Shown piece after piece: positions 18,619 to 20,638 of a DNA stretch of 32,465 bases (within the stretch, counting starts at the first letter, position 1; each line of letters starts with the position of its first letter). The notes under the pieces are model-generated. The model was not told the origin of the DNA. It saw nothing but the letters and a program-made list of their open reading frames with translations, and did not search any database. Origin of the DNA: Bacillota bacterium (lineage in GTDB: Bacteria > Bacillota > Dehalobacteriia > UBA4068); contig JAUNBC010000002.1 of NCBI GenBank assembly GCA_030527285.1, forward strand, positions 1 to 32,465. Reading direction: 5' to 3'. The translations under genes were made by a program, and so were the position numbers.

Positions 18619-18645
18619 TTAGCACTCACCGTCTTTAAGTGCTAA
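18619..18645 (-). promoter_or_regulatory. CIRCE operator
   Basis: The 9-bp arms at 18619-18627 and 18637-18645 with a 9-base spacer match the CIRCE consensus (TTAGCACTC-N9-GAGTGCTAA) with one mismatch. It lies just downstream of the -10 box, where HrcA binding blocks transcription. Confidence 0.97.
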
Positions 18646-18712: not shown

Positions 18713-18738
18713 AAAAAAGCGCCGCCCAAAGGCGGTGC
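18713..18738 (-). terminator. Intrinsic terminator at the end of the gdhA-hrcA intergenic element
   Basis: The minus strand forms a GC-rich stem from 18738 to 18719 with a TTTG loop and one A-C mismatch, followed by six T residues (18713-18718). It insulates the hrcA promoter from transcription coming from the gdhA side. Confidence 0.8.
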
Positions 18739-18756
18739 AACTTAGGGAGGCGTCGG

Positions 18757-18814
18757 TTTTCCGCAACTTGTTCGAAAAGCCCTGTGCAAACAGGGCTTTT
18801 TCTTATGCGGAAAA
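18757..18814. terminator. Nested bidirectional terminator-like hairpin
   Basis: An inner perfect 10-bp stem (18775-18784 with 18791-18800) flanked by A and T runs could terminate transcription in either direction. It is enclosed by a second 9-bp inverted repeat, TTTTCCGCA at 18757-18765 and TGCGGAAAA at 18806-18814. It lies 17 bp before the next terminator, so the minus-strand transcript would meet two stops in a row. Confidence 0.7.
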
Positions 18815-18824
18815 CTACGAAGTA

Positions 18825-18935
18825 TTTCTGCGGCGAGAAATTTCGGCGCAGGGCAAGGCGCAAAGCGCAGCAATAGACGGAGCCTATTGTGAGCATTTGC
18901 AACGCCGCACTGCGCCGAAAGAGCCGACGCAGAAA
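18825..18935. repeat. Long imperfect palindrome H1
   Basis: Complementary segments stay in nearly one register over 111 bp. The outer 8 bp are 18825-18832 with 18928-18935, the middle 11 bp are 18841-18851 with 18910-18920, and the apical 6 bp are 18871-18876 with 18884-18889, closing a 7-base loop. No credible gene overlaps it. It could be a structured RNA or an intergenic repeat unit; copy number elsewhere is unknown. Confidence 0.6.
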
Positions 18936-18947
18936 CGGCGTATCCCG

Positions 18948-19227
18948 AGGCACATTGAGCTCGAACCGACACGGTTTTGGAGCAAAATCAACGGCATCTG
19001 CCGCATCTATCGTCACTGCACGTAGGAACCGCTACGCACAGCGCCGATAGCTACGCCATCTGCTCGCCGATTTTGCTCCAAAACTCCTGCGTACCCCAGC
19101 GGGATGTATCGCCGTGCTGAGCAAGGCAGCGCGACGACGGCATACCGGTGGTATGTTTAGGAGCGCTAACGCAGCATAGTGCGGCGATACGCCCGCTGGG
19201 GCGTATTGGTTCGAGCCCAATGTGCCT
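18948..19227. other. Three-way-junction-like composite of nested inverted repeats
   Basis: The closing stem pairs 18948-18967 with 19208-19227, 20 positions with a single A-C mismatch. Inside it lie two long hairpins. H3 spans 18975-19083: its base is a perfect 15 bp (18975-18989 with 19069-19083), with further pairing at 19007-19012 with 19045-19050 and 19021-19025 with 19032-19036. H2 spans 19094-19201: pairing is 19094-19103 with 19192-19201, 19106-19114 with 19182-19190, and an apical 19141-19146 with 19150-19155. Together with H1 this fills most of the 669-bp gap between gdhA and hrcA, where I see no gene. Function is unknown; candidates are a structured RNA, a 3' untranslated element of gdhA, or a mobile intergenic repeat. 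Confidence 0.6.
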
Positions 19228-19294
19228 ATGCGCGCCGCCAAAAGCCGTCCGGAGGCGCTTGATCGCGTTAAAACTAAAGCTACGAGCGTTGAGA

Positions 19295-20638
19295 TTAAAC
19301 GATACCCTGAGCGATCATCGCTTCGGCAACCTTTACGAAACCGCCGATATTGGCGCCGTCAACATAGTTGATCGAGCCGTCGGCCTTTTTGCCGTATTCG
19401 ACGCAGGTCTCATGGATATTAGCCATAACGTGCTGCAGCTTCTCGATGACTTCGTCCTTAGTCCAGGACAGACGCTCGGAGTTCTGCGACATTTCCATGC
19501 CGGAAACAGCCACGCCGCCGGCGTTGGAGGCTTTACCGGGCGCGAAGAGGATGCCGGACTCATGGAACAGCTCGATAGCTTCGAGCGTGGAGGGCATATT
19601 CGAGCCTTCGACAACGGCTTTGCAGCCATTGGCGCGCAATCTCTTGGCGTCCTCGAGATCGAGCTCGTTCTGGGTAGCGGTCGGGCAAGCCACGTCGCAG
19701 GGAACTTCCCAAGCGCGATGGCCTTCGCGGTATTCGAAACCGAATTCGGTGGCGAAATCCTTGATCGGACGGCGATACACAGCCCACAGCGGCTTGAGGA
19801 ATTCAAGATGCTCGGCGGTGATGCCGGACGGCACATAGACGAAACCGGCCGGATCGGCGACGGTGACGCATTTGCCGCCCATTTTGTTGACGTTCTCGAT
19901 CAGGTAGCAGCCGACGTTACCGGCGCCGGACAGCGCAACGGTCTTGCCTTCGATGCCGCCCAAACCGGCCTTCTTCAGCATATGGTCGGCGAAATAAATA
20001 ACGCCGTAGCCGGTGGCTTCGGTACGGCCGAGGCTGCCGCCGAAGGGCAAGCCCTTACCGGTCAAAACGCCTTCAAAGCGGTTGACCAACTTCTTATACT
20101 GGCCGAACATGTAACCGATCTCACGGCCGCCCACGCCCAAGTCGCCGGCGGGAACATCGGTGTCGGGGCCGACATGGCGGAACAGCTCGCTCATGAAGGC
20201 CTGGCAAAATCTCATGACCTCGGCGTCGGATTTGCCGATGCCGTTGAAGTCGGCGCCGCCCTTACCGCCGCCCATCGGCAGGCCGGTAAGAGAATTCTTG
20301 AAGGTTTGCTCGAAGCCCAGGAACTTCAGCGTGCCCTGAGTGACATTAGGAGAAAACCGGCAGCCGCCCTTATAGGGGCCGATAGCGCTGTTGAACTGAA
20401 TACGATAACCACGGTTGACCTGAACCTGACCCTTGTCGTCGGTCCACGGTATGCGGAAGCTGACGACGCGTTCCGGCTCGACGATACGTTCCAGCAACGC
20501 ATCCGCCTGATAACGCGGATTAGCGTCGACGAACGGCGCCAGAGAGCCGATGACTTCTTCTACCGCCTGATGGAATTCAGGCTCCGCGGGGTTCTTGGCC
20601 TTGACGTTTTCCATAAATTTCTGGACATCAAAAGACAT
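19295..20638 (-). CDS. gdhA: NADP-type glutamate dehydrogenase
   Basis: This 447-residue enzyme interconverts 2-oxoglutarate plus ammonia and glutamate, the main ammonium-assimilation step in many anaerobes. The substrate-binding GLPMGGGKGGADFNG motif carries the catalytic lysines, and PAGDLGVGGREIGYMFGQYK follows. The nucleotide-binding GAGNVG motif is in the C-terminal half, and the C-terminal VSGMEMSQNSERLSW segment fits the hexameric small GDH family. The ATG has a GGGAGG site. It is monocistronic, with its own promoter and an operator-like dyad. The NADP assignment rests on overall family resemblance. Confidence 0.97.
   Translation of the reverse strand: MSFDVQKFMENVKAKNPAEPEFHQAVEEVIGSLAPFVDANPRYQADALLERIVEPERVVSFRIPWTDDKGQVQVNRGYRIQFNSAIGPYKGGCRFSPNVTQGTLKFLGFEQTFKNSLTGLPMGGGKGGADFNGIGKSDAEVMRFCQAFMSELFRHVGPDTDVPAGDLGVGGREIGYMFGQYKKLVNRFEGVLTGKGLPFGGSLGRTEATGYGVIYFADHMLKKAGLGGIEGKTVALSGAGNVGCYLIENVNKMGGKCVTVADPAGFVYVPSGITAEHLEFLKPLWAVYRRPIKDFATEFGFEYREGHRAWEVPCDVACPTATQNELDLEDAKRLRANGCKAVVEGSNMPSTLEAIELFHESGILFAPGKASNAGGVAVSGMEMSQNSERLSWTKDEVIEKLQHVMANIHETCVEYGKKADGSINYVDGANIGGFVKVAEAMIAQGIV

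Follow-up and report, generated by a model that had tools for sequence, protein, structure and literature searches.

A probable composite of nested MITE-like palindromes in the gdhA terminator of a Bacillota genome

Within the window analysed here (the whole stretch of 32,465 nt), the gap between gdhA (19295-20638, minus strand) and hrcA is almost wholly made of complementary arms, which raises the question of what it is, an undescribed structured RNA, a long gdhA 3′ UTR or a mobile palindromic intergenic repeat having been put forward by the initial annotation. That it holds no credible gene was borne out: ORFs of 47-102 aa within the gap had no Pfam match, a tRNA/tmRNA search of 18713-19227 returned nothing, so that a tRNA-like reading of GGTTCGAGCCCAAT was dropped, and Rfam gave no match at gathering cut-offs, only weak ones far below them. 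The claim that the pairing exceeds chance also held, with an RNA fold of 18713-19227 at −279.9 kcal/mol compared with −187.0 ± 6.7 in dinucleotide shuffles (z −14.0) and none of 100 shuffles reaching that energy. Folding 18730-19240 as single-stranded DNA gave a z of −13.7.

The gap resolves into two nested repeat units, A and B, set between the arms of a split terminator (strand is given where one is assigned):

18717-18726: left-hand half of the split gdhA terminator stem, AAGCGCCGCC, pairing with 19251-19260 with one mismatch
18730-19240, plus strand: unit A, the outer palindromic element, interrupted by B, with ends AGGCGGTGC ... GCGCGCCGCC and copies in the genome
18756-18815: side hairpin P2 of A, GTTTTCCGC ... 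GCGGAAAAC, from the fold and conserved in copies
18825-18935, plus strand: main hairpin P3 of A, a match to its own reverse complement at exactly these coordinates
18855-18904, plus strand: conserved core of A, AAGGCGCAAAGCGCAGCAATAG ... CTATTGTGAGCATTTGCAACG, near-identical in Burkholderiales palindromes
18947-19229, plus strand: unit B, nested in the right arm of A, with a 100% identical copy elsewhere and partial copies
18948-18973: left arm of the closing stem P1 of B, 88% complementary to 19202-19227
18974-19084: side hairpin P2 of B, 111 bp, GTTTT ... AAAAC, with a perfect 16-bp base and no match to the core model
19105-19191, plus strand: main hairpin P3 of B, core AAGGC ... AACGC, 37.7 bits under the covariance model R1 (E 2.9e-7)
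19202-19227: right arm of P1 of B, pairing with 18948-18973
19230-19239, plus strand: right terminal repeat of A, GCGCGCCGCC, the same end as in other copies, beside A or B
19251-19260: right-hand half of the split gdhA terminator stem, GGAGGCGCTT, shortly after the gdhA stop codon (minus strand)

The stems first described are thus real, and what changes is their grouping. The 111-bp imperfect palindrome matches its own reverse complement at 72% over exactly 18825-18935, and the two inner hairpins were recovered at 18974-19084 (73% self-match over the exact span) and, in the fold, at about 19094-19200. The closing stem stands but is longer than the 20 bp claimed, its arms being 26 nt. The palindrome and the supposed three-way junction are instead two nested repeat units, and the feature runs on past 19227, its outer element to about 19240, with the split terminator arm beyond it. 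As we read the sequence and fold, A and B are laid out alike: each is closed by a stem of about 25 bp and contains a side hairpin as well as a long main hairpin whose core has the form AAGGC...AACGC. The side hairpin begins 25-26 nt from the left end in both, has a GTTTT/AAAAC base, and measures 60 bp in A and 111 bp in B; minus the side hairpins, each unit is about 170 bp. P2 of A itself holds a terminator-like hairpin (about 18775-18801), whose loop is the insertion site in contigs C36 and C1.

A search of the bacterium's own genome (1.63 Mb, 40 contigs, 82% complete) with 18713-19240, a check of the kind that the initial annotation had proposed, returned 72 matches. About nine are near-full copies of A at 92-99% identity, and uninterrupted A with both ends, 230 bp long, lies at six loci. 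The left end of A occurs 18 times, against none for a reversed control pattern. As in MITEs, A carries terminal inverted repeats (AGGCGGYGC ... GCRCCGCCT), and both A (230 bp) and B (about 283 bp) are short, multi-copy and free of Pfam matches. B recurs in contig C1 over 285 bp at 100% identity, forming with the 3′ part of A an identical composite of 326 bp, and partially in C36, C40, C35, C12 and C15; its junction in the right arm of A reads CCC / B / GCGCGCCGCC. These counts are lower bounds, contigs starting or stopping inside A or B (C6:1-141; C40:22190-22250) as if the repeats broke the assembly. Contig C5 carries a simple form of A that lacks the core hairpin and has GCAG repeats at the join; it might equally well be an ancestor or a slippage deletion, and we draw no order of events from it. 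A few copies lie near gene starts, among them an internally deleted B-like palindrome (C12:16340-16421, L027) just upstream of a gene reading as uvrB.

Copies in related genomes, which the initial annotation had also suggested seeking, were not found: neither A nor B occurs in 60 relatives, indicating that A was acquired in the bacterium's own lineage, and BLAST against 399 genomes of the phylum returned nothing for either except one 26-nt match to the A core, in G024. Phages gave no match to the whole unit and IMG/VR no core, and the plasmids of Cupriavidus and relatives share the core only, so that phages and plasmids were rejected as the source of the whole unit.

Where A lies follows a strict pattern. 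At gdhA, the A-run at 18713-18718 is a T-run when read on the gdhA strand, and the element sits within the gdhA terminator, so that a long gdhA 3′ UTR would be at most a by-product. All nine A copies with both ends lie between complementary arms, as in intrinsic terminators, the left arm typically having an A-run and the right one a T-run. Each site has arms of its own sequence, and 20,000 permutations of the flanks produced no set that paired as well as the real one. The same test on 31 Burkholderiales elements, serving as a negative control, showed no terminator preference (p=0.55). Most copies lie at the 3′ end of a gene, and many of them separate convergent genes. In C36, a composite of A and B′ splits the terminator hairpin that another A copy carries, and comparison with sister copies gives the empty site, CCCTGTGCAAACAGGG, and the filled site, CCCTGTGCA-[AGGCGG...CCGCCT]-CAAACAGGG, with a 2-bp duplication of CA. 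A second insertion occupies the same hairpin loop in C1, in the opposite orientation and with its far side lost. The target duplication is clear at C36 alone, the flanks elsewhere being A-rich.

BOX, RUP and SPRITE of pneumococcus are likewise short, non-coding, intergenic, enriched between convergent genes and inserted into one another, and SPRITE resembles a terminator (PMC3049150, PMC10969869). A and B share with such elements, as with bacterial MITEs, their short non-coding palindromes, convergent-gene gaps and nesting (PMC3049150, PMC10969869). Unlike BOX, RUP and SPRITE, every two-ended A copy is inside a terminator hairpin, and several phyla have the A/B core, flanked by unrelated terminal repeats. 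The choice of target is closer to that of IS1272, which targets inverted repeats (potential stem-loops) irrespective of their sequence (PMC5678879), just as the A target is a stem-loop whatever its sequence (nine of nine terminators, all differing). IS1272 nevertheless replaces its target stem-loop and encodes a transposase (PMC5678879), whereas A keeps the arms and encodes no protein. Searches of the bacterium's own 82%-complete assembly for PF13751 (the proxy for IS1182-type transposases) and PF01609 were empty, so that no IS1182-like or IS4/IS5-like transposase was found there.

Could such copies have been kept by the host as bidirectional terminator modules, functional at convergent genes? 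Their position at gene 3′ ends and the terminator-like hairpin inside P2 of A agree with this, but the flanking terminators pre-existed, and truncated and nested copies, with none in family relatives, look like recent spread, leaving such adoption improbable. Movement of REP/REPIN elements by a RAYT (Y1) transposase is still more improbable. A and B do resemble REP/REPIN-RAYT systems as dispersed, high-copy intergenic palindromes with conserved mismatches, REPIN-like in general form, yet A/B-type cores occur without a nearby RAYT, in units of 160-280 bp, and the GTAG/CGTC tag was not seen. The sole Y1 trace in the bacterium's own genome, at a contig end (C16:5-109, L161), is a truncated fragment that reads as IS200-type TnpA and not RAYT. 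No full core lies within 1.5 kb of any of 25 Y1 genes (in 14 of 18 Burkholderiales genomes), and no Y1 RAYT gene flanked by the repeat was found in either the own genome or the Burkholderiales set.

The core of A extends well beyond this genome. Cupriavidus plasmids match it at 84-86% over about 69 bp, and a pattern scan of named genomes found at least 119 stretches; among the matches listed, titles naming a group were all betaproteobacterial or of broader Pseudomonadota. In the Burkholderiales cores even the positions that the pattern did not fix hardly vary, and the left core arm of A is identical to Duganella and Herbaspirillum copies over 31 nt. The Burkholderiales elements are mostly about 160 bp whatever terminal repeats they carry. 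Like A they have a near-identical core, a long imperfect palindrome and short direct repeats at the ends; unlike A they have other terminal sequences, no side hairpin and no terminator preference. No published name for them was found. Several of their ends seem to resemble those of IS5; the IS5 end compared is multi-copy in E. coli, which is no proof of kinship.

The covariance model R1 was built from 42 Burkholderiales cores and A, B being left out. It scored P3 of A (18837-18924) at 79.8 bits, A itself being part of the model. Across the 399 genomes of the phylum it matched in the bacterium's own genome, G342 (five), G109 (two), G070 (two) and G097 (one, doubtful), the last of which (L249) looks like an ordinary terminator and was not counted. 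Further matches were on one clostridial plasmid, from Subdoligranulum, and one from Streptomyces. Read on the reverse strand, these palindromes reached only about 20 bits, and the side hairpin of B was unmatched, so that R1 does more than detect long hairpins. The five G342 copies (L247, L252, L255, L257, L259) carry the same core in palindromes that measure about 160 bp and whose ends read GGGACTATCAA ... TTGATAGYCCC. On the plasmid of Streptomyces sp. ADI95-16 (L264:1140-1312), the core of a palindrome of about 164 bp has diverged (GGAGGAGGGAG ... CGACCGACGACAACG), and relatives of this element are present in 54 Streptomyces plasmid records.

Covariation in the core stems, for which the initial annotation had called, proved strong and beat all controls. 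In 32 Burkholderiales elements, 28 pairs show double changes, shuffles reach none of the measures, and sliding the register lowers the paired share from 94% to about 40%; in 15 diverse members all controls were beaten again. The core helices are thus kept by compensating changes across three bacterial phyla. The proposal of an undescribed structured RNA is upheld as far as a structured element with covarying pairs goes, and no further, since such pairs fit a functional structured RNA but do not separate it from folded DNA.

A structured non-coding RNA family, in which core and covarying stems would work as RNA (a regulator, say, or a processed 3′-UTR RNA) and the repeats would be paralogues, would account for the covariation and the conserved internal loops. 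It would also suit the Burkholderiales copies between tandem genes (L042-L160), whose core is opposite the gene strand in 25 cases versus 7 (p=0.002, with rough ORF calls and related copies included). Both examined Cupriavidus plasmid copies, however, share the strand of their neighbours, contrary to that bias, and palindrome covariation can also arise from a constraint on folded DNA or from template switching. Together with the empty Rfam search, the multi-copy state, the terminal inverted repeats, the nesting and the patchy distribution, this makes an RNA family unlikely, though somewhat less so than adoption as a terminator.

The third candidate of the initial annotation, a mobile palindromic intergenic repeat, is the one favoured by the many near-identical copies at the 3′ ends of genes, by the nesting and by the one site known both filled and empty. 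The gap is probably a composite of non-autonomous, MITE-like palindromes, with A in the gdhA terminator loop and B nested in A, moved in trans by a putative transposase that prefers hairpin targets: the units are repeated, with fixed ends, terminator flanks, nesting, one filled/empty pair and, elsewhere, a conserved core with covarying stems. The gdhA intrinsic terminator would have taken up A in its loop, and B, a relative of A, now lies within the right end of A. Both would be copied in trans by the putative transposase, which may prefer hairpin-forming targets and probably recognises the folded form of the element, as cruciform or single-stranded DNA, because the core is constant while the ends vary. 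Insertion into a terminator loop is probably harmless and so tolerated, because on the gdhA strand the left repeat could still fold with the target arm into a hairpin ahead of the T-run. Terminator sites could partly represent survivors of harmless insertion, but the Burkholderiales negative control argues against survival alone. Neither a transposase with matching ends nor a longer element with the ends of A was found in the 82%-complete assembly, and the Burkholderiales element ends formed no long pair among the matches listed.

More tentatively, and with the balance somewhat against it, the core could define a family of structured mobile elements, about 160 bp long, widespread and so far undescribed, with members in Burkholderiales, several Bacillota-type genomes and Streptomyces. 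Common machinery would read their conserved internal loops, whether in folded DNA or in RNA, and the terminal repeats could change freely; here one branch would have added a side hairpin and come to prefer terminator hairpins. Exact core strings retrieved no relevant paper in the literature open to full-text search, and subscription papers, outside that scope, may hold an earlier description. Strict terminator-loop location, nesting and a cross-phylum core are what is unusual in A and B, a real, repeated and mobile-looking feature. That unrelated ends enclose a single core, conserved and covarying, suggests that some bacterial MITEs may be unified by internal structure and not by terminal repeats. 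The preference for terminator loops is a clean example, from nature, of hairpin-directed insertion; it would also account for spread through a compact genome with genes left unbroken. For annotation, highly stable, covarying intergenic folds may be mobile palindromes instead of regulatory RNAs.

The gene order hrcA-grpE-dnaK and the presence of RNase Y suggest that the genome is Bacillota-like. Upstream of hrcA, 18619-18645 reads TTAGCACTC-N9-AAGTGCTAA, a CIRCE-like operator with one mismatch to the consensus.
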